Below are positions 19,963-33,001 of a stretch of DNA of 64,000 nt, piece by piece; the stretch's first letter is position 1, and each line of letters starts with the position of its first letter. The stretch is from Bryobacterales bacterium. GTDB taxonomy: Bacteria > Acidobacteriota > Terriglobia > Bryobacterales > Bryobacteraceae. Under the pieces are notes generated by a model. That model searched no databases and was not told the origin of the DNA. It saw only the letters and a list, made by a program, of their open reading frames with translations. The stretch lies in the NCBI GenBank assembly GCA_003164035.1, contig PLRS01000092.1, positions 1-64,000 on the forward strand. The letters are read 5' to 3'. The translations under genes and the position numbers were made by a program.

Positions 19963-22653
19963 TCACCGCGCGCCGCGGTATTGAGCCAGGGTCTTTTCCA
20001 GCGCGCGGCGGGCCGGAGTCGGCGCGGGCTCAATGAGGGCCAGCGCCTGTTCGATGGCTTCGACCGCCGATTGCCGATCGCGGTTGAGCCAATACGCTTC
20101 GCCTAGAATTTCCTGCACTTCGGAATCTTTGGGATCGAGGGCGGCGGCCCGCTTGGCAAGCTCCAGGCCCAGCTTCGGATCGGCCATCGCCCCAACCCTG
20201 GTTTCCAGCAGCGCCCGCGCCGCCACGGCCAACTCTACCGGAGACGCTTGCGGCACCGCTGCGATCGCTCGCAGCGTGCCAATGCCCGCCTGCGCCAGGC
20301 GCAGCGCTTCGGCGGGCCGTCCCGCGTTCGCGCTGAGACCGGCGGCATCGGCCTCCAGCTCGGCCTGCGCGAAACGGTACGCCTTGTTGGCCGGATTCTT
20401 CGCCCGCAGCCGGTCGTAGATCTCGATGGCGATTAGAAAATAGCGCAGCTTCGCATCCGCGTGGCCCGCGTAGCCGCTGACGATTCCCAGATCCCGGTAC
20501 GGGATCGCGCGGAAATAAAGGGCCATCACGTTAGCCGGATCCTCATCCGACATGCGGTCGCGGATTTGCCGGGCTTCCTCCAGAGCCGCCAGCGAAGCTG
20601 TGAAGTCGCCCAGGTTGCCCAAATTCCAGCCCAGCCCGAGCAGCGCCGAAGAGCGGGCGTTGCGCGCCTGCGGCGTGTCCCGTTCCTTTTCCGGAATCTG
20701 TTCCAGAACCGCTTGCGCCTGGCGAAAAAAAGCCGTCGCCGCAGGCCGGTCGCGCAATTCCGTCAGGTCGCCCATGCGCTTGTAATTGCTCCCCAGCGCG
20801 GTCAGCACTTCGGCTACACCCGGATGGAGCCGCGCCGCCGCGGTGGCATTGTCGATGGCTTTCCGCATCGCCGCCAGGCCCGCGTCCAGGTTCTGCGCGT
20901 TGACATAGCCGTTGTTGACGCTCAGCGCGGAAGCGAGGGATTGGAAGGCGACAGCGGCCTGGCTGCGGACCTCGAAATCGGCTGGCCAGTGGGCGGCCAG
21001 CCCGTCGAATTCCCGCGCGGCATCCTCCACCAGCCTGAGCCCCGCCGGCGCGCTTCCGCCGAAACCGATGCTGCGCCCCAGCTCCAGTTTCGACCGTGCC
21101 AGGCTTACCCGCGCGCGCAGATTGTTGGGGTCCCGGGCGGCCAGCGGCTCCAGAATCGCAATCGCCTTGCGGAAGCTATCCCGCGCCTTGGCGGTTTCGC
21201 CCAGATTGGGCTGAAATGGGCTCCCCAGCACGGCGCCCAGATCGGCATACCCTTCGCCCACCTCCGTGCGTAGAACCGGGTCGTGGATCTTCTGGGCCGA
21301 CAGCCGGTCCAGGTAGTCCAGGGAGTGGCGGGCCATGTCGGCCTCCACCGGTGTGGAACCGGGCAGCTTCGCCACCGACTTGCGAAGATCGTACTGCAGA
21401 TAGCGCGCCAGCTCGTGGGCATCCGCGAACCGCCGCTCCGCCACCCGCGCTTCCCACAGCGTCGCCACCAGGCCGGCCACCAGCGAGAGCGTCACCAGCA
21501 TCACCGTCGCCACGACGGATTTGTGCCGCGTTACGAACTTCCGGGCCGGGTACAATCGCCCCCTGGAAGCGGCCTGCACCGGATGGCCATCGAGGTAACG
21601 GAGGATGTCGTCGGCGAACTGCTCCACCGAAGCGTAGCGGTCGGCCGGGGAGCGCGCCAGCGCCTTGGCGGCGATCGCCTCCAGGTCGCCCCGCAGAAGC
21701 CGCGCCAGTGCGGCGGTGCCCACCCCGCGCGCCGCCGCGCCCTCCCCGGTCAGTCCATGGCTGAGAGCCGGCGCATCCGAGGAAAGCACCGCCTGGATGA
21801 TCTCCGCCGGCGTAGTCCCGCTCGCCCCGAAAGGGCAGGTGCCGTTCAATAACTGGTACAGCAGGACCCCCAGCGAATACACGTCGGCGGCCACCGAGAC
21901 CGCCTGATTCCGCAGCACCTCCGGGCTGGCGTAGAGCGGCGTGAGAAATAAATTGGAGGTAGCCTGCGCGCTGTCGCCATCCGCCTCCAGGGTTCGGGCA
22001 ATGCCGAAATCGAGCAGCTTCGGCTCGCCGGCCGGCGTTACCAGAACGTTGCCCGGCTTCAGATCGCGGTGTACGATCAGGCGCTGGTGCGCAAAGCTCA
22101 CGGCCGCCGCGACCTTCAGAAACAGGTGCAGGCGCCGCTCGATGGAGAGCCGCCGGGAATCGCACCAGGTATCGATGCGCTCGCCCTCCACGTATTCCAT
22201 GACCAGGTAGGAAAACCCTTCGTCGGTGACGCCGCCGCCCAGAAACGCGGCGATGTTCGGGTGGTAGAGCTCGGCCAGAATCTGGCGTTCGCTTCGCAGC
22301 CGGTCCTCCAGCAAGGGAGAGTGATAGGGCGAGGCGATGGCTTTGACGGCCACCCGCTGCCGCACTTCACCGTCCTCGCGGGTTGCCAGGTAGACCGCGC
22401 CCATGCCGCCGGCGCCGATTACCTCCCGCGCCTGGTAGATCCCGAAACGGGGCAGCCGAGCCGGCGCCGGGGTCCCCCGCTGCCGTACCGTCGCGTCCGA
22501 CGCCAGCAAACGGGCGACTTCCTGGCGCAGCCCCGCGTCGCCGCCGCACCGCGAATCCAGCCACGCCTCCCGCTCCGTCCCGGTCGGCAGCGTCACGGCC
22601 TCCTGAAACAGCCGGGCCAATTGCCGGAATCGCTCTTCGGGGTGGGCAGTCAT
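19963..22653 (-). CDS. Ser/Thr protein kinase with membrane segment and TPR-like sensor
   Basis: 896 residues. An N-terminal helical segment is followed by a PknB-type kinase domain: Gly loop GAGGMGAVYL near residues 80-89, VAVK Lys 104, HRDLKPGN near 195-202, DFG 215-217 and YASPEV. All catalytic residues are present. A transmembrane segment (VATVMLVTLSLVAGLVATLW, about 390-410) leads into a long alpha-helical TPR-like C-terminal half, probably outside the cytoplasm. GGAGG sits 11 bases before the ATG at 22653, which I prefer over 22677. Acidobacteria commonly pair such kinases with ECF-like sigma factors, as here (23072-23680). Confidence 0.9.
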   Translation of the reverse strand: MTAHPEERFRQLARLFQEAVTLPTGTEREAWLDSRCGGDAGLRQEVARLLASDATVRQRGTPAPARLPRFGIYQAREVIGAGGMGAVYLATREDGEVRQRVAVKAIASPYHSPLLEDRLRSERQILAELYHPNIAAFLGGGVTDEGFSYLVMEYVEGERIDTWCDSRRLSIERRLHLFLKVAAAVSFAHQRLIVHRDLKPGNVLVTPAGEPKLLDFGIARTLEADGDSAQATSNLFLTPLYASPEVLRNQAVSVAADVYSLGVLLYQLLNGTCPFGASGTTPAEIIQAVLSSDAPALSHGLTGEGAAARGVGTAALARLLRGDLEAIAAKALARSPADRYASVEQFADDILRYLDGHPVQAASRGRLYPARKFVTRHKSVVATVMLVTLSLVAGLVATLWEARVAERRFADAHELARYLQYDLRKSVAKLPGSTPVEADMARHSLDYLDRLSAQKIHDPVLRTEVGEGYADLGAVLGSPFQPNLGETAKARDSFRKAIAILEPLAARDPNNLRARVSLARSKLELGRSIGFGGSAPAGLRLVEDAAREFDGLAAHWPADFEVRSQAAVAFQSLASALSVNNGYVNAQNLDAGLAAMRKAIDNATAAARLHPGVAEVLTALGSNYKRMGDLTELRDRPAATAFFRQAQAVLEQIPEKERDTPQARNARSSALLGLGWNLGNLGDFTASLAALEEARQIRDRMSDEDPANVMALYFRAIPYRDLGIVSGYAGHADAKLRYFLIAIEIYDRLRAKNPANKAYRFAQAELEADAAGLSANAGRPAEALRLAQAGIGTLRAIAAVPQASPVELAVAARALLETRVGAMADPKLGLELAKRAAALDPKDSEVQEILGEAYWLNRDRQSAVEAIEQALALIEPAPTPARRALEKTLAQYRGAR

Positions 22654-22772
22654 GGTGAGACGCACCTCCGACGGCACCCCGCTTCACAGACGACGGCAAC
22701 CCGCATTTCGCAAATCATACACTAAATCGACCGCCATCGCCAAAGCGGGCCGGGACTATTGGGTGGGAAGTA

Positions 22773-23027
22773 TTATCGCTCCAGCCGGGTGATCCCGTTA
22801 TCGAGCTCGGCGATTTTGGAAATGATGTCCATCCGGTACGTCGCCATCTGGGAGAGGATGGCGGCGTCTCCAGCCTTGATCTCAGCCCGGAGGGTGTCCT
22901 TGATGCCGCCCAGCCGGTCCTTCATATCGTCTAGCCGGTGATTGTTCAGGAGAATCCCAATGGCAACCAACAGGATGGTTGGGACCGTGGCGAGTGCGAT
23001 GGTGAGAAGTTGCGTTTCGCTCAACAT
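22773..23027 (-). CDS. small single-pass membrane protein with coiled coil
   Basis: 84 residues: one transmembrane helix (LLTIALATVPTILLVAIGILL, about residues 7-27), then an amphipathic, probably coiled-coil tail (RLDDMKDRLGGIKDTLRAEI and onward) rich in heptad-like hydrophobics. I do not recognise a family. It lies between an ECF-like sigma factor and a membrane kinase on the same strand (44 and 119 bases apart), so it could be part of that signalling unit. Confidence 0.65.
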   Translation of the reverse strand: MLSETQLLTIALATVPTILLVAIGILLNNHRLDDMKDRLGGIKDTLRAEIKAGDAAILSQMATYRMDIISKIAELDNGITRLER

Positions 23028-23071
23028 CCGCTTTCTATTCTCGATTTTACCAGTTCACCGGTGACCCCACT

Positions 23072-23680
23072 TCACCCCGGCGCACTCAGCCGCTGGTGCA
23101 GCCACGCCAGTGAGAAACGCACGCCGCGATCCACCGTCGAAGGCGAGATGCCCAGCACTCCCGCGGTTTCCTCCACCGTGCAACCCAGAAAGTAGCGCAG
23201 TTCCAGCGCGCGGGCCTTCTCCACGTCGGTGGCTTCCAGTTCGTCCAATGCCAGCGAAAGATCGAGCGTGTCCGTGCCCGCCGGACCCACCCAGCAAAGC
23301 TCGGCATTCAGCGGGATCCGGTCCAATGCCAACCACCGTTTGGATGCCTTCAACCGGCGGGCGTGATCGATCAGGATCCGGCGCATCAGTTTTGCCGCGA
23401 AGGTGAAAAAGTGAGCCCGGTCGCTGAGCGTCACGCGATGGAGATTGACCAACTGTAGAAACGCCTCGTGCACCAGGGCGGTCGGTTGCAGCGTGTGGTC
23501 CAGCCGTTCGTGGTGCAGCAGCCCGTCGGCCACCTTGCGCAGTTGGTCGTATACCAGCGGCGCGAGCTGCTCCAGAGCTTCCGTCTCTCCCTTCGACCAG
23601 CGCTCCAGCCAGACCGTCACTTCCCCGGGAGCGTCCGCCACGCCTTCGATTTTATCATTCGCGGCTGGCGCGATTTGCAT
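23072..23680 (-). CDS. ECF-like RNA polymerase sigma factor (Acidobacteria-type)
   Basis: 202 residues. Region 2 is visible in ALEQLAPLVYDQLRKVADGLL and HTLQPTALVHEAFLQL, with AHFFTFAAKLMRRILIDHAR, a signature of the ECF-subfamily sigma factors frequent in Acidobacteria and planctomycetes. Region 4 is a helix-turn-helix (CTVEETAGVLGISPSTVDRG). No anti-sigma factor with zinc motif is next to it; a downstream membrane kinase on the same strand is the likely regulator by analogy with other such pairs. I chose the ATG at 23680; it is divergent from the exported protein at 23717 with only 36 bases between. Confidence 0.9.
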   Translation of the reverse strand: MQIAPAANDKIEGVADAPGEVTVWLERWSKGETEALEQLAPLVYDQLRKVADGLLHHERLDHTLQPTALVHEAFLQLVNLHRVTLSDRAHFFTFAAKLMRRILIDHARRLKASKRWLALDRIPLNAELCWVGPAGTDTLDLSLALDELEATDVEKARALELRYFLGCTVEETAGVLGISPSTVDRGVRFSLAWLHQRLSAPG

Positions 23681-23716
23681 CGGGATTACGCCGTATTCGA
23701 TAGAGGAGAATGCGAT
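23681..23716. promoter_or_regulatory. short divergent spacer between sigma factor and exported protein
   Basis: Thirty-six bases separate the two start codons, with GAGGAG at 23703-23708 serving as ribosome-binding site for the plus-strand gene. Promoters of each gene must lie at least partly within the other's 5' coding region, which suggests linked control. Confidence 0.45.
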
Positions 23717-25360
23717 ATGAAAAACCGTTGGAACCACTTGGCCTGTCCGTGGCTGGTTCGTCTTACCGCGCTCGAGTTCATCGGTGCCGCCGCCCTGGCT
23801 GCCGCCCCGGCCGTTACCGGGGTCTATAATACCGCATGGGTTGCTCCCGGTTTGCCCAACTCCGGGATTGCGCAGGGCGCTTTCTTCGCCCTTGTTGGGA
23901 CCGGGCTCGGCCCCTCCACTCCGCAGCAGGTCCAGGCCTATCCCCTGCCTACCACGCAGGGACTAGGCGGAACCACGGTCCAGGTCACGGTCGGCAGCGT
24001 AACCAAGACCTGTATTATGGACTACGTCAGCGCCACCCAGGTCAACGCGATTCTTCCTTCGGCTACGCCCACGGGAACCGGCACGATTACGCTCTCCTAC
24101 CAGGGCGGAACCAGCTCGATTTCGGTCCAGGTCCTGGCCGCGAACTTCGCCATGGATACGTTGAATGGCGCCGGCACCGGGTCCGGAGTGGTCACCGATC
24201 TGAACTACAACGTGATCACCATGATCAACCCCGCGCATCCGGGCGAGGACTTGATTCTGTGGGGCAGCGGCCTGGGCGCGGTGACCGGCGACGAGACCGA
24301 GCCGCCGGTGCAGGTCGACTTGGGCACCGGCGTGCAGGTCTTCGTCGAAAACCAACCGGCTACCGTGCTCTACGGCGGACGGGGCAGCTCTCCGGCGCTC
24401 GACCAGATCGACTTCACCGTACCGACAGGAATCAGCGGCGGGTGCAGGACGTCCATTGCCGTTCTGGTCAAGGGAGTGACAGGCAACGTCACCAGCATGT
24501 CCGTCGCCCCGGCCGGGCAAAGCACCTGCAACGACGGTTTTGGCTTCCTGACCGCGGCTAACCTGCAAAAAGCGGTTACTAACGGTTCTCTGAATATGGG
24601 CGGCGTCGTCGTCAGCCGCATCGCCACCGGTAACGACACCCTGCTCGGATATTTCGGGAACTACCCGCTCAACAGCCTCATTCGGTCCTACGGAGGCTAC
24701 TACGGCCCATCCATCGGCAGTTGTGTCGCCTATGAAGTTGGGGGAAGTTCGATCGAGACGGCACTTGTGGATCCGGTTCAGCCGGCCTATCTGAATGTGG
24801 GCGCGGACATGGTGATTACCGGGCCCGGGGGAACCCAAACCATCCCGGTGAGTTCGGCCGGATACTTCGCGGCGGATCTCGCCGTCGCGCCGTCCACCTA
24901 TATTCAGCCCGGAAGCTATACGGCCACAAACGGCTCGGGCGGATCCAATGTGGGAGCCTTCACCTGGAACTTGACGCTTCCGGCCTCCGTCGTGCCCACC
25001 AATATCCCAGCCACCGTCAACCGCGCGCAGGACCTGAAACTGACCTGGACCGGAGGCTCGGCATACCAGGTGGCGAGCATCTTCCTGATCAGCGGTATTC
25101 CACTGGCGTCGTCTCTGAACTCCTGGGCCTTTATCGTATGCGACGCCGATGCGTCCTCGGGAACATTCACGGTTCCCTCCGCGATTCTCAATCTGCTTCC
25201 CACCAACGGCTATGGAAGCTCAAGCCCGATCAAGCGTGGAGTCAACGTCTCGATCGCGGGCGTTCCCGAGGCCACCTTCACCGTGGCCGGCTCGCCGGGA
25301 CTCGATGCAGGCATCTTTACCGTGTTTGTATCGAACAACTCGGTGGCGACAATTCAGTAA
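23717..25360 (+). CDS. exported Solibacter-type repeat-domain protein (TIGR03437-like)
   Basis: 547 residues with an N-terminal signal segment (WLVRLTALEFIGAAALAAAPAV). Two tandem units follow: VAPGLPNSGIAQGAFFALVGTGLGPST with VTVGSVTKTCIMDYVSATQVNAILP, then INPAHPGEDLILWGSGLGAV with VFVENQPATVLYGG and ALDQIDFTVPTGI. This PGe-x-l-x-G-x-G-L-G and q-i-N/D-x-x-v-P pattern matches the C-terminal domain found many times in Solibacter usitatus. The remaining C-terminal 270 residues are beta-rich. It is probably a surface or secreted protein; function unknown. RBS GAGGAG is 8 bases before the ATG. Confidence 0.8.
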   Translation: MKNRWNHLACPWLVRLTALEFIGAAALAAAPAVTGVYNTAWVAPGLPNSGIAQGAFFALVGTGLGPSTPQQVQAYPLPTTQGLGGTTVQVTVGSVTKTCIMDYVSATQVNAILPSATPTGTGTITLSYQGGTSSISVQVLAANFAMDTLNGAGTGSGVVTDLNYNVITMINPAHPGEDLILWGSGLGAVTGDETEPPVQVDLGTGVQVFVENQPATVLYGGRGSSPALDQIDFTVPTGISGGCRTSIAVLVKGVTGNVTSMSVAPAGQSTCNDGFGFLTAANLQKAVTNGSLNMGGVVVSRIATGNDTLLGYFGNYPLNSLIRSYGGYYGPSIGSCVAYEVGGSSIETALVDPVQPAYLNVGADMVITGPGGTQTIPVSSAGYFAADLAVAPSTYIQPGSYTATNGSGGSNVGAFTWNLTLPASVVPTNIPATVNRAQDLKLTWTGGSAYQVASIFLISGIPLASSLNSWAFIVCDADASSGTFTVPSAILNLLPTNGYGSSSPIKRGVNVSIAGVPEATFTVAGSPGLDAGIFTVFVSNNSVATIQ

Positions 25361-25656: not shown

Positions 25657-27189
25657 TCACCGCGCCGACGGCGGTAGCGCCGGTTGGCAGACGGTGCCGG
25701 CAACCGCGGCGAGCCGTTGAAACAGCGGCTCGCCGATCCGGACTTTCAGAACTTCGGCGATCCCCTGCGTCCAGCCGTGGAGGAAATAGAGCCAGCCGTC
25801 CTCGACGCGCACTTGCCGGGTTTCGCGCTGAGCCAGCGCCTGGTGCAGGAATGGAAGCTCGCCGCGATAGTTCAGCTCCCACGCCACGCCACCGATGGGA
25901 AACAGCCCCCGATCGGTGATGGGCGATCCCGGCAAGTCTTTCCCCATCCCGGTGGCGTTGATCACCACCGAGGCCGGCGGCAACCTGCCCATCAACTCGT
26001 CGTTGAACTCCGGCAGAACGTTGCAGTGGTACTCGAACCCGATATCCGTGTCGAGCCCGGCCACCATTCGCGCCAGCGAGTCCAGCCGCCCCGCGGAGCG
26101 GTTCACCACGACGATACGCCGCGGCCGGTCCGCGCGGTCCGGCTTGCGGGCGAGATGCAAGGCGATGGCGGTGGTCGATCCACCCGCCCCGAAGCACAGC
26201 ACCTGCGCGCCGGTCCTGCCGAAATAGCCTTCGCCCAGTACTGAATCCAGGCTCAGCCCGGAGGTGACCGGATCCTTGGCATGGCCGGCCAGCGACGTTC
26301 CGTCCTTCGATATGCTGGACACCTCGCCGCAGATTGCCGCAAAGGGGTCGAGGGTATCGAACATATCGCGGGCGGCTTCGAGCAGATTGACCTTGTGGGT
26401 GGTCACCAGCGCTCCGAGCGAAAGCGGATCGTACTTGATTTGCGCCACCGCGCGCCGGTAGTTTTGCGGATCGTCGTGAAGCTTGAAATCGACGCCCTCA
26501 ATGACGGCATCTTCCCGGCCGAGCTCCTTCATCCACAGGGGAAAGACTTTCATGATGGACGATTTGGCCGTGGTGACGCCGAAAAAATACATGGTGGGGC
26601 GGGTCTTGGTAACGCGCGGCGGCAGCCAATTAAAGTTGTCGACCACCTGGTATCCGCCCTCGCGGCTCACCACCCGCTTGCGGAAGCCGTGCCGCTCGAT
26701 GGTGCCATAATCGTGCCCCGCGCCGGCCGGGTAGGTAAATAGCGTCGCCAAGTCTTCTTCCTCGCCGGTGTTGATCGAGCGGTGTGCCCAGCCCGGCGCC
26801 ACGTACACGGCGCGGCCGGGCAGCAGTTCCTCAACGTGCCAGTCCCCCTGCAGGTTCTCCATCAGCAGCAACCCGCGTCCCTTGACGCAGTAATAGGTTT
26901 CCGCCGTATCGACGACCGCGTGGAAGTGCCCCTTGGTCATGAAATACTCGTCGCCCACGCGGCCGGCGTGAACCACCGAGAGCCCCGTGCGCAGCTCGCC
27001 CGCGACCTCCGGCCGTGCGATCTCGTAAACTTCGTAGATGGTCGGGTCGCCGGATTCGATCAGGCGCCGGCAGGCGTCGGGATTCGAATACTGGCCGTCC
27101 ATCGAGGAGAGGCGCCGCTCGATGTGACGGTCGAACCGCGACAGGCGGCTCGCTTCCGGCAGGACGTCGAAGGCAAATGGCAGGTTCAA
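25657..27189 (-). CDS. fusion: cupin-type phosphoglucose isomerase + shikimate-dehydrogenase-like domain
   Basis: 510 residues. Residues 1-195 are the archaeal-type, metal-dependent glucose-6-phosphate isomerase cupin: GHFH (87-90) with Glu 97 and Tyr 99 in the GHxHx6ExY motif, WAHRSIN (His 136) and AGHDYGTI. Residues 200-495 are a shikimate-dehydrogenase-like domain: FFGVTTAKSSIMKVF replaces the usual SLSP substrate loop, VTTHK contains the catalytic Lys (266), Asp 306 sits in AKDPVTSG, the NAD(P) motif is GAGGS (334-338) and NATG is at 411-414. All core catalytic residues of both halves appear present, but the altered SLSP loop suggests the second substrate is not shikimate. The start is a TTG at 27189 with AGGA 8 bases upstream. 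Divergent from a GntR regulator. Confidence 0.88.
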   Translation of the reverse strand: MNLPFAFDVLPEASRLSRFDRHIERRLSSMDGQYSNPDACRRLIESGDPTIYEVYEIARPEVAGELRTGLSVVHAGRVGDEYFMTKGHFHAVVDTAETYYCVKGRGLLLMENLQGDWHVEELLPGRAVYVAPGWAHRSINTGEEEDLATLFTYPAGAGHDYGTIERHGFRKRVVSREGGYQVVDNFNWLPPRVTKTRPTMYFFGVTTAKSSIMKVFPLWMKELGREDAVIEGVDFKLHDDPQNYRRAVAQIKYDPLSLGALVTTHKVNLLEAARDMFDTLDPFAAICGEVSSISKDGTSLAGHAKDPVTSGLSLDSVLGEGYFGRTGAQVLCFGAGGSTTAIALHLARKPDRADRPRRIVVVNRSAGRLDSLARMVAGLDTDIGFEYHCNVLPEFNDELMGRLPPASVVINATGMGKDLPGSPITDRGLFPIGGVAWELNYRGELPFLHQALAQRETRQVRVEDGWLYFLHGWTQGIAEVLKVRIGEPLFQRLAAVAGTVCQPALPPSAR

Positions 27190-27291
27190 GATTCGTCCTA
27201 TAATGCTATAATCACAGGATTAAACGGTAGCAGCCTGCGAATCCCGCTGTCAAATGCCGCCCGGGCTGCAGGCGCAAAGGGAACGGCGAGA
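27190..27291. promoter_or_regulatory. divergent promoter region, isomerase-dehydrogenase fusion / GntR regulator
   Basis: 102 bases between the divergent starts. Two TATAAT hexamers on the plus strand (27199-27204 and 27207-27212) are good -10 candidates for the regulator gene. AGGA on the minus strand near 27196-27199 is the ribosome-binding site of the fusion gene. A GntR-family operator is likely here, but I cannot single out a clear palindrome. Confidence 0.5.
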
Positions 27292-28089
27292 ATGAACGCG
27301 ACGCCCGCGAGGGAACCGAAAATCGCTCCAAGCGTGCCATTCGACGGTGCGGGAGTGATCCAACAGCGAGACCCGGTCCCGTACTATTTTCAGCTCAGCA
27401 CCTACATTGCCGCCCGGGTGAAGTCCGGCGATTGGCGGCCCGGCCAGTTCCTGCCGAGCGAGCAGGAGATGTGCGCCGCGCTCGGCATCAGCCGCACGGT
27501 GGTCCGCCAGGCCCTGGTCGACCTGGAGCGCAAGGGATTGGTGGTCAAGCAGAACGGCAAGCGGACCAAAGTCGCGTCGCCGAAGTACGAGGGCGGCCTG
27601 ATGCAGAATCTCCAGGGGTTCCAACAGGACGCCGCGGCGCACGGGCGGAAGACCTCCACCAAGGTCCTCGGCTGCGAGGTTGTCCCGGCGGACGCCGAGG
27701 TCGCCGAGGCTTTGAAAATTGCGCCCGGCGATTCGGTCCTGATGCTGAACCGGCTGAGATTCCTCGATGGCGAACCGCAAGTGCTGGTGGTTTCGTATTT
27801 GCCGGGAAGGCTGTGCACCTCGCTGGCCCGCGAGGACCTGACCGACCGCTCGCTCCACGAGACCCTGGCTGTCGAATTCGGTTTGAGAATCGTTCGCGGT
27901 TTTCGCACCATCGAGGCGATCGGCCTGGACCGGGCCGACGCCCGCCTGCTCCGCCTCAAGCCAGGCAGCCCGGCCCTGCTGCTGAAAAGCATCGGCCTCG
28001 TGGCCGATGGCACGCCTCTCGAATACTTCGTCGCCAAGCACCGGGGCGACCGCACCAAGTTCTACGCCCAGCTTGTGCAGCCGGAATAA
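27292..28089 (+). CDS. GntR-family transcriptional regulator, HutC/UTRA type
   Basis: 265 residues. A winged-helix GntR domain (about 25-95: YFQLSTYIAARVKSGDWRPGQ, LPSEQEMCAALGISRTVVRQAL, ERKGLVVKQNGKRTKVA) is followed by a UTRA ligand-binding domain (LMLNRLRFLDGEPQVLVVSY, TRL-like core, and the ending TPLEYFVAKHRGDRTKF). UTRA domains usually bind sugars, sugar phosphates or related metabolites. Being divergent from the isomerase-dehydrogenase fusion with 102 bases between, it most likely controls that gene. A longer upstream frame overlaps the fusion gene and is not homologous. Confidence 0.9.
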   Translation: MNATPAREPKIAPSVPFDGAGVIQQRDPVPYYFQLSTYIAARVKSGDWRPGQFLPSEQEMCAALGISRTVVRQALVDLERKGLVVKQNGKRTKVASPKYEGGLMQNLQGFQQDAAAHGRKTSTKVLGCEVVPADAEVAEALKIAPGDSVLMLNRLRFLDGEPQVLVVSYLPGRLCTSLAREDLTDRSLHETLAVEFGLRIVRGFRTIEAIGLDRADARLLRLKPGSPALLLKSIGLVADGTPLEYFVAKHRGDRTKFYAQLVQPE

Positions 28090-30595: not shown

Positions 30596-33001
30596 TCAGC
30601 TTCGCATGCGCAGCAGCAGGTACAGTCCCGCCAGTCCGAAGAGCACGTCGGGCGAGAAGGCGGCCATGGTCGGCGGCAGCAGGTTCGCGTCCCCGACCTT
30701 CTCGAACAGGATGCCCAGGCCGCGGTAAGAAACTCCGATCGCCAGGCTCTGCCCGATGCCCGCCATGGCGCCCCGGTTCCCCACCCGGAATCCGAAAGGC
30801 ACCGCGATCATGGCCATGATCAGCGCAAACAGCGGCGCCGCGAACTTCAGGTACAACTGCACGTGCTGCTTTACGGTCGGGTAGCCGCGCTGCTCCAGCT
30901 CGCCGATCAGCCGCTCCAGTTGCAGGAAGGTCATCTGCTTCTCCTGCATTCCCTGCGGCAGAAAATAGTCGGGAGGCTCGGTCAGCTCCGGAAACGTCGC
31001 CACCTGGTTGGGGTCGTTTTCGCTGAACGGGGTGAAGTGGCTGCAGGAGGTGTTTTCGAAGGTGCAGCTCCAGCCGTTTTCGAACACCCACGTCCGGATC
31101 GAAGGGTTCCAGGTAGCCCGCTGGGCGACGATTTCCCGCTGCAACCGGAACGCTCCCGGCCGCGGGTCCAGCTCGAACACGTTCACCCCCAGCATCACGT
31201 GCGCCGAGGTGTCGAAATAGCGGTAGTAGTAAATCCGGTGCGCCCCATAGCCCATGATCCACTTGCGGTCGGTGCGATAGTAGGTTTGCGTGGGCCGGTT
31301 CTTGATCACGTCCCGCAGCGCGTCCTGCTTGAGGTTGGCCCCAGGCACGTAGTAGTGATCGAAGGCGAACAGACCTCCCGAAAACAGCACCCCCGCCACC
31401 AGGATCGGCGTGGCCAGCCGGTACAAGCTCACCCCGCAGGCGCGAAACGCCGTGATCTCGTTCTGTTTGCTGAGCACCCCCAATTGCACCAGCACCGCCA
31501 CCAGCACCCCGAACGGAAAAAGTTCGTAGATTAGCTCCGGCGTCAGGAAAAACAGGTAGGTGAACATCTTGCTGAGCGGGATCCGGTTCTTGACCATGTC
31601 GCCCATCAGATCGAAGAAGTTGTACACCAGCAGCATCGACACCAGGCTGGCCAGCATCACGGCCAGGTAAAACAGGAAGCTCGACAACAGGTAGGTGTCC
31701 AGAATTTGCGGCAGCAGCGGGAGGCGCCGGCGCATGGTACGCGGCTCCGCCCGCACTTCGCTAACCGCCGCCGGCTCGTTCCCCGGGGCGACCTCTTCCA
31801 CGCGCGGCGCGCTACGCTTCGCCCGGAACAGTCCGGCCACGCGTCCGAAAACATCGTTCAGCCCGCCCAACAGATCGCGGTCGCCCGGCGATTCCATCCG
31901 GTACAGAAAGATGACGCCGGCCACGAAAAACGCGGCGTTGGGCAGCCATAGCGCCACCGGCACCGGCAGGGTGTGCTGTTTGGCCACCCCGATCAAGGCC
32001 AGCGACGACAGGTTGTAGCAGAAGAACCCCAGAAACAGCGCAATCACGTACCCGGCCGATTTGCCGCCCTTGCGCGTGGCCACGCCCAGCGGAATCCCCA
32101 CCAGCGCCAGCGTGATGCAGGCCAGCGGGAGGGAAAAGCGCTTGTGCAGCTCGATCTGGACTTCGGTATAGTCCGGCCCGCTGCGCGGATACCGCATCAG
32201 CTCGCGCGTATTCATGGCGCTCGATCGCAGCGTCTTCAAATCCGGCGGCGAAGCGTCCAGCGCCTGCACTCCGTAGGGGGCGGAACTGTCGTTGGCGCGC
32301 CGGTCCTTGCCCATTTCGTGCTGGGTGTAATCTTCCAGGGTCAGCTCGATGCGGTTGTGGCGCGGGTCGGAAACGGCGACCGCCTCCCGCGCCAGCGTGA
32401 TCATGGGCCCATCGGCTTTATCGCGCATCCCGTTCTGGCGTTGCTCCGGCGGGGTGATGTCGGCTACGAACACCCTTCTCCACTTGTCCACCGACCCGGT
32501 GACGACGTCGTCCACGTACAGAATCTTATTGGGGAAGTTCTCATTGAAGACGCGCGGCTCGATGGCCGCCGAAAGCTGCGTAGCCAGAATGTCGTTGAGG
32601 ATGTGCGTGCTCTGGCGATATGCCAGCGGCGTCAGCCGCAGCTCGGCATACCCCGCCAGGGCCGTCCCCAGCGCCGCGAATGCCAACACCGGTGCGATCA
32701 CCGTGCGGCTGGAAACTCCGGCAGCCCGCATGGCCACAATTTCGCCATCCGCCGCCATCCGCCCCAGCCCGATCAGAATCCCCACCAGCACGCCGAACGG
32801 AATGGTCAACGGCAGCACCGGCGGCAGCGTCCACCCCAGCAGCGCCAGTACCGTCCCCGCGCTCACGTTGTTCGAGCTCACCAGCGCCGCGAACAGCTTA
32901 TCCGCGTATTGCAAAAAGATGATGAACGTCGCCAGCAGCGTGCCCAGCAGCGCGCTCTCCACCACCTCGCGGAAGACGTATCTGCCCAGGAGACGGAACA
33001 C
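30596..33001 (-). CDS. LptF-LptG fusion, LPS export permease
   Basis: 801 residues, about twice the length of a single LptF or LptG. The first half (MFRLLGRYVFREVVES, FIIFLQYADKLFAAL, ADGEIVAMRAAGVSS, RKGGKSAGYVIALFL) is LptF/YjgP-like with three plus three helices around a periplasmic beta-jellyroll. The second half restarts near residue 430 (LLPQILDTYLLSSFLFYLAVML) with SKQNEITAFRACGVS, a second periplasmic part and MAMIAVPFGFRVGNRGA, as in LptG/YjgQ. LptF and LptG pair with LptB ATPase to push LPS to LptC; here the pair is one chain. GTG start at 33001 with AGGA upstream, 7 bases after the TldE-like gene. Confidence 0.92.
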   Translation of the reverse strand: MFRLLGRYVFREVVESALLGTLLATFIIFLQYADKLFAALVSSNNVSAGTVLALLGWTLPPVLPLTIPFGVLVGILIGLGRMAADGEIVAMRAAGVSSRTVIAPVLAFAALGTALAGYAELRLTPLAYRQSTHILNDILATQLSAAIEPRVFNENFPNKILYVDDVVTGSVDKWRRVFVADITPPEQRQNGMRDKADGPMITLAREAVAVSDPRHNRIELTLEDYTQHEMGKDRRANDSSAPYGVQALDASPPDLKTLRSSAMNTRELMRYPRSGPDYTEVQIELHKRFSLPLACITLALVGIPLGVATRKGGKSAGYVIALFLGFFCYNLSSLALIGVAKQHTLPVPVALWLPNAAFFVAGVIFLYRMESPGDRDLLGGLNDVFGRVAGLFRAKRSAPRVEEVAPGNEPAAVSEVRAEPRTMRRRLPLLPQILDTYLLSSFLFYLAVMLASLVSMLLVYNFFDLMGDMVKNRIPLSKMFTYLFFLTPELIYELFPFGVLVAVLVQLGVLSKQNEITAFRACGVSLYRLATPILVAGVLFSGGLFAFDHYYVPGANLKQDALRDVIKNRPTQTYYRTDRKWIMGYGAHRIYYYRYFDTSAHVMLGVNVFELDPRPGAFRLQREIVAQRATWNPSIRTWVFENGWSCTFENTSCSHFTPFSENDPNQVATFPELTEPPDYFLPQGMQEKQMTFLQLERLIGELEQRGYPTVKQHVQLYLKFAAPLFALIMAMIAVPFGFRVGNRGAMAGIGQSLAIGVSYRGLGILFEKVGDANLLPPTMAAFSPDVLFGLAGLYLLLRMRS

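Follow-up and report, generated by a model that had tools for sequence, protein, structure and literature searches.

Organisation of the locus

The stretch of DNA analysed here, hereafter called the window, comprises 64,000 nucleotides of contig PLRS01000092.1 (assembly GCA_003164035.1) from a Bryobacterales bacterium of the Acidobacteriota, and it carries a gene in which a cupin phosphoglucose isomerase (PGI) is joined to a dehydrogenase resembling shikimate dehydrogenase (SDH), next to a divergently transcribed regulator and an operator-like site (Table 1). The fusion begins with a TTG codon, which is separated by an intergenic gap of 102 bases from the ATG of the regulator at 27292, and it is the sole match to the query in its own genome, a draft assembly of 8 Mb in 169 contigs. 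The first-pass annotation, made from the letters of the sequence, had described a PGI and SDH-like fusion with a divergent GntR/UTRA gene, and the single frame, the profile matches, the motifs and the residue numbers all bear this description out.

Table 1. Coordinates of the features at the fusion locus (positions within the window).
Feature	Position	Strand	Basis
Fusion gene, cupin PGI + SDH-like dehydrogenase, 510 aa	25657..27189	-	Single uninterrupted frame, profile matches
N-terminal cupin PGI-type domain, residues 1-188	26626..27189	-	PF06560; phmmer against cupin PGIs of known structure
C-terminal SDH-fold dehydrogenase domain, residues ~195-497 (K266, D306, GAGGS, NATG)	25699..26607	-	AlphaFold, Foldseek, VIA-align
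GntR/HutC-type (UTRA) regulator, 265 aa	27292..28089	+	GntR and UTRA profile matches; divergent from the fusion
Operator-like site TAATCCTGTGATTA	27209..27222	- (as read)	Shared with Chloroflexota operons whose regulators are homologous

The two halves of the fusion protein

The N-terminal half resembles the cupin PGI of Pyrococcus furiosus over the whole domain: PF06560 matches fusion residues 25-179 (3.4e-25, 88.8 bits, with a cut-off of 20.7), the solved cupin PGIs align with residues 23-188 (phmmer, best 4.4e-47), and the cupin motif, GHFHAVVDTAETY, goes together with a TKG before the first histidine. The metal ligands of cupin PGI are given in PMC6627849 as His88, His90, Glu97, and His136, and the identical numbering holds in the fusion, where H88, H90, E97, and H136 are invariant in 8 of the 8 aligned proteins. 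In contrast with that enzyme, the window protein is fused to a dehydrogenase and groups with PGIs encoded in operons, so that its substrate may be another sugar phosphate.

The C-terminal half carries AKSSIM besides the motifs listed in Table 1, and its catalytic lysine and aspartate (K78 and D118 in the alignment numbering) are invariant in 37 of the 37 aligned SDH-like proteins. By conservation, both active sites look intact, as had been proposed at first. The cupin half ends near DNFNWLPP and the dehydrogenase starts within about 10 residues, so neither half is truncated; separate homologues reach 58% identity with the PGI half and 69% with the SDH half, which places the homology of the fusion beyond chance. 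Modelled alone with AlphaFold (pLDDT 95), the SDH half has the two-domain SDH fold across its whole length, with a VIA-align Z of 28.5 to the shikimate enzyme 3tnl (rmsd 2.8, 274 of 309 residues) versus 26.4 for 7cok, a 5-ketofructose reductase. The latter enzyme also gives the top Foldseek row by E-value (7col, 5.6e-16) and ranks second in a profile search of solved sequences (6.7e-10), although the Foldseek rows are bunched, the first 50 running from 5.6e-16 to 3e-13. Like the SDH half it has the SDH fold, and it acts on a sugar; the two are 20-24% identical. After the nucleotide site of the SDH half lies an NRSxxR stretch, which we take to resemble that of NADP-type SDHs, and our guess is for this reason that NADP is the cofactor.

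The SDH half shares its fold, the catalytic lysine and aspartate, and the GAGG nucleotide site with the AroE/YdiB shikimate and quinate dehydrogenases, and differs from them in several respects. SxSP is the carboxylate-binding motif of shikimate dehydrogenase, and in all 37 aligned SDH-like proteins it is replaced by xSSxx, with an invariant SS (read by eye). The same alignment shows motifs particular to the family, NYRG and DGWxYFx(H)GW, and the SDH half has AKD where the AroE of its own genome has NTD. Against the aroE profile TIGR00507 (NCBIfam) it scores 39.8 bits, with a cut-off of 200.2, and 41.3 bits, also below, in the genome search; PF01488 matches residues 326-378 weakly (17.2 bits, under the cut-off of 24.3). 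In addition, a separate true AroE above the TIGR00507 cut-off is present in the genome, within a 517-residue open frame whose front part may be AroD-like in our reading. Given the lost SxSP, the score far under the AroE cut-off, and this separate AroE, shikimate is not expected to be the substrate of the SDH half, and the earlier suggestion of another second substrate is upheld to that extent.

Operon context of the SDH-like family

We compared 80 loci carrying SDH-like genes, which are the best 80 of 580 confirmed in the scan, so that the counts lean to close relatives; a gene was scored as present from a BLAST hit at 1e-15 over half the query rather than from a tree. A PGI gene is present in 54 of these loci, including 40 of the 45 with full 10-kb flanks, and it is always on the same strand as the SDH-like gene (54/54) and upstream of it in 44. 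In four loci (L053, L064, L073, L093) the two genes are direct neighbours in the order of the fusion, and in eight others they adjoin with that order reversed. Equally frequent is a 2-hydroxyacid dehydrogenase (54/80; 39/45 with full flanks), followed by an FGGY kinase (52 loci), a KDPG/KHG-type aldolase (46), and a lactonase-type gene (43); PGI, kinase, hydroxyacid dehydrogenase, aldolase, and lactonase occur all together in 29 of the 80. The lactonase-type genes belong either to the PTE family (29 loci) or to the MBL family (14 loci), never to both in one locus, and they score 86.7 bits to phosphofuranose lactonase (cut-off 630) and 42.3 bits to ascorbate-6-phosphate lactonase (cut-off 306), respectively. 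Of the 43 loci with a lactonase-type gene, 21 contain neither a Gfo/Idh nor a zinc dehydrogenase, so that the SDH-like protein remains a constant candidate for the lactone-forming dehydrogenase. Of the six annotated plasmid loci read from Alphaproteobacteria, five place PGI before the SDH-like gene in one run, four of them with the aldolase in between; in the sixth (Shinella) the SDH-like gene comes first.

The idea of a new step in sugar or cyclitol metabolism fares unevenly against this context: the sugar part agrees with the neighbouring genes for a kinase, a lactonase, a hydroxyacid dehydrogenase, and an aldolase, whereas for the cyclitol part there are only weak hints, since two dehydrogenases neighbouring SDH-like genes score with the IolG and IolM families below the cut-offs. 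As in the phosphorylated sugar-acid routes, kinase, lactonase-like, and KDPG-type aldolase families stand in one operon; unlike those routes, which usually employ a dehydrogenase/dehydratase pair, an SDH-like protein, a cupin PGI, and a 2-hydroxyacid dehydrogenase take the place of that pair here.

In the trees, the SDH half falls within a set of 45 rows, 41 of them from Chloroflexota (support 99/97). The PGI half, in a quick tree, lies beside that of a genome of the same family, G038 (support 82, under the firm-support mark of the tree), both within a mainly Chloroflexota set; in G038 the genes in the row are a kinase end, Gfo/Idh, zinc dehydrogenase, and PGI. Horizontal transfer is a possible origin of the fusion halves.

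Two further contexts of SDH-like genes were seen. In the Caldilineaceae (L067, L077, L078, L083, L096) the gene is accompanied by ABC-transporter-like genes (our reading) and FAA-hydrolase-family genes with no PGI, which is a second conserved context. In the Acidobacteriota loci L016-L020 the SDH-like gene is surrounded by seemingly unrelated genes; four of these, L017-L020 (G093, G075, G091, G038), form a shorter and more distant branch with 43-46% identity, which in view of such surroundings may serve another role.

Occurrence of the fusion

The halves are never joined in one gene in the 80 loci or in 11 further ones (L010-L020). Among 151 genomes around and including the own genome, eight (own included) have a match to any half and no other match spans both; in a phylum draw of 396 genomes, six (own included) have a match, and again only the own genome spans both halves. 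The fusion is therefore a single-genome event, and what recurs is the two-gene operon. The first-pass annotation had counted a fusion found in no relatives as a sign of a mere accident of gene order; the joined gene was indeed found in none of the relatives searched, whereas the pairing of the two enzymes as an operon recurs, so that its interpretation as a whole is partly supported.

Other apparent fusions were considered. Two Rhizobium records, H14 (L104) and H15, each give one BLAST piece over both genes, but in H14 a stop codon stands between them. A long open frame in L019 merely extends 39 residues ahead of the SDH start and contains no PGI, and the supposed joining of an SDH-like gene to a 440-aa protein in L043 runs through a string of N. 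In L040 (504-2840) the SDH-like gene does continue in frame into the same 440-aa family, with an internal start codon kept. This family lies downstream of SDH-like genes in Chloroflexota (L030, L051, L052, L054, L055, L056), and it gave no Pfam match, with one partial member and the L043 frame scanned, and no convincing match in the PDB.

The regulator and its operator

The regulator has GntR (PF00392; 2e-16, 59.8 bits, cut-off 27) and UTRA (PF07702; 1.1e-38, 132.6 bits, cut-off 23.8) domains, and it is 41-44% identical to its GntR homologues in 11 Chloroflexota SDH-like loci; in four other loci the GntR proteins are 33-40% identical to it. The intergenic region of the window and the Chloroflexota operons with homologous regulators have in common the operator motif TAATCCTGTNATTA, which precedes many of these regulators, or else an SDH-like or kinase gene. 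The copy in the window lies five bases past a -10-like TATAAT on the strand of the regulator; promoter-like sites in the 102 bases number 1 versus 0.4 in shuffles, which is weak alone. With at most one mismatch allowed, the operator matches 21 times in the 1.38 Mb of the 80 loci, and the reversed motif three times. As three pairs overlap, the 21 matches mark 18 separate places, spread over 15 loci. A homologous regulator is encoded in 15 loci, of which 11 contain a match. The 13-base form with at most one mismatch is expected 0.01 times in the window. In the whole own genome, the 14-base form with at most one mismatch occurs twice, versus once for the reversed motif, and both occurrences are exact where 0.018 exact matches would be expected from the base composition of the window. 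The homologous regulators and the common operator at SDH-like loci support the view that the regulator belongs with the fusion enzyme. It resembles the HutC-type GntR regulators in both of its domains and in an operator adjoining its own gene, and it differs from them in the operator motif and in the present target set.

A second operon in the same genome

The second exact site of the genome (G000:C29:66867) lies within TTTAATCCTGTAATTACAG at a separate locus, C29, and downstream of it on the + strand follow an SMP-30/gluconolactonase-like protein, two DUF6905 membrane proteins, an FGGY kinase, and a zinc dehydrogenase. The zinc dehydrogenase and the SMP-30-like protein are 72% and 57% identical to members of a Planctomycetota run that ends in an SDH-like gene and that also has a RhaT-like transporter and a kinase (32% to the C29 kinase). 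The same zinc dehydrogenase is 61% identical to the product of the gene immediately before the SDH-like one in a Chloroflexota locus, and the C29 kinase is 56% identical to the kinase of a PTE-PGI-hydroxyacid dehydrogenase-SDH run. Because the common operator agrees with this independent evidence from homologues, the pathway of the own genome seems to be split over the fusion locus and the C29 locus, tied together by one regulator.

Around the C29 site (L131, 1-3766 and 8774-11203) we also observed a receptor-like gene (our reading), an enolase-superfamily (MR/MLE) gene resembling sugar-acid dehydratases, and a GH31 glycosidase, which hint at the source of the sugar. An EDA homologue at G000:C15 was considered as the aldolase of the pathway and set aside, since it adjoins a 412-aa SerA-like gene and probably does not belong to it; a one-mismatch match to the 13-base operator form 6.4 kb away was counted as chance.

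Proposed pathway

We suggest that the 510-residue fusion is probably a two-step enzyme of a regulated pathway for the breakdown of a phosphorylated sugar. A sugar or polyol would enter the cell, be oxidised by the zinc dehydrogenase, and be phosphorylated by the kinase. The cupin half would then interconvert ketose phosphate and aldose phosphate at its metal site, giving aldose phosphate in the forward step, and the SDH-fold half, presumably NAD(P)-dependent, would oxidise the ring form of this aldose phosphate at C1 to a lactone, to be opened by a lactonase. Where the operon is full, the last steps of the route would fall to the 2-hydroxyacid dehydrogenase and the aldolase. The GntR protein presumably binds both operator sites and represses, until a sugar or sugar phosphate of the pathway releases it. 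Taken by itself, the C1 oxidation is a tentative assignment, which we base on the recurrence of unrelated lactonase-type families and on the 21 lactonase loci devoid of both Gfo/Idh and zinc dehydrogenases. The fusion, the conserved catalytic residues, the SDH fold, the association in operons, and the shared operator with its two exact genomic sites are computational results, whereas the substrates, the C1 chemistry, the repression, the inducer, and the cofactor are inferred.

On a wider scale it is possible, if still doubtful, that these operons represent a widespread oxidative phosphorylated-sugar pathway, consisting of a kinase, a cupin isomerase, an SDH-fold lactone-forming dehydrogenase, a lactonase from one of several unrelated families, a 2-hydroxyacid dehydrogenase acting at C2, and a KDPG-type aldolase splitting a 2-keto-aldonate phosphate. 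A single type of GntR regulator and a single operator would govern it in no fewer than two phyla, and the present genome would make its second and third enzymes as one chain. No description of this gene set was found in openly licensed PMC papers, subscription journals lying outside the search; the enzyme families are known, and their combination, the fusion, and the operator appear to be new, the last without a literature search aimed at it.

A number of observations weigh against this proposal. The fusion was found in one genome only among those searched, and its full-length model is poor (pLDDT 77, pTM 0.56) and gives no basis for judging domain contacts or channelling. PGI is missing from 26 of the 80 SDH-like loci (5 of the 45 with full flanks), some of them on short contigs; it does not adjoin the SDH-like gene in the Acidobacteriota loci L016-L020 (three on contigs under 11 kb), and two Planctomycetota loci also have no PGI beside that gene. 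Homologues of the PTE-type and operon MBL-type lactonases are absent from the own genome (0 at 1e-6), its aldolase homologues (best 43%) have no exact operator site nearby, and the SMP-30-like protein, given its lipoprotein-like start (our reading), may act outside the cytoplasm on the unphosphorylated sugar. As for the operator, no match was found in L057, L062, L074, and L100 despite their homologous regulators, and in the own genome the 13-base form with one mismatch is as frequent as its reversed control (6 versus 6).

The loci without PGI also fit another explanation, somewhat unlikely in our estimation, in which the SDH half acts on a sugar acid or a cyclitol, or a phosphate of these, earlier or later in the pathway rather than on the product of the PGI half, and the fusion merely joins two enzymes of an operon. 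SDH enzymes have ring alcohols as substrates, and the IolG and IolM scores of neighbouring dehydrogenases point in the same direction, while the strict co-stranding of PGI and SDH-like genes and their direct adjacency in a dozen loci, in either order, speak against it. We consider it unlikely that the order of the two reactions is inverted, with the SDH half reducing a dicarbonyl sugar or its phosphate in the manner of 5-ketofructose reductase and the PGI half then isomerising the resulting ketose or ketose phosphate. Such a role agrees with the first place of 7col in Foldseek and with its rank in the profile search, and PMC7954740 reports a 5-ketofructose reductase related to SDHs, as well as an SDH-like protein inactive on 5-ketofructose. 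However, the structures of the SDH family score almost equally well, and the lactonase, hydroxyacid dehydrogenase, and aldolase neighbours fit an oxidative route better.

Two further explanations were weighed. An assembly or sequencing error that deleted the stop between adjacent genes would account for the absence of the fusion from all relatives searched, in a draft of this many contigs, but it appears improbable: the frame is single and clean, neither domain is truncated, the linker is short, unknown residues and remnants of a stop are lacking, and a promoter region with the conserved operator precedes the gene. That the SDH half is an ordinary AroE replacement or a spare shikimate enzyme is suggested by the fold, the catalytic lysine and aspartate, and the label "shikimate dehydrogenase" that plasmid-borne relatives carry in public records; we reject this as very improbable given the aroE score, the missing SxSP, the other AroE of the genome, and the sugar-type neighbours.

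Members of this SDH-like family carry the label of shikimate dehydrogenase in public records, yet their usual companions in Chloroflexota, Bacillota, and Alphaproteobacteria are genes for sugar kinases, isomerases, lactonases, and aldolases. The fusion and the common operator indicate which genes cooperate, and they yield a testable gene set, a regulator site, and an enzyme order for a catabolic pathway, as well as a route to correcting a mislabelled family.

Other genes in the window

On the - strand, at 30596-33001, LptF and LptG, the permeases for lipopolysaccharide export that usually have a gene each, are seemingly joined in one 801-aa frame with two PF03739 stretches; two adjoining TldD/PmbA-type peptidase genes (PF19289; 33009-36496, -) lie directly upstream of this frame in transcription order. 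At 19963-23737 (-), some 2 kb away from the fusion and separated from it by a + strand gene, lie an ECF sigma factor and, after it, a large Ser/Thr kinase containing TPR repeats; no link to the fusion was seen.

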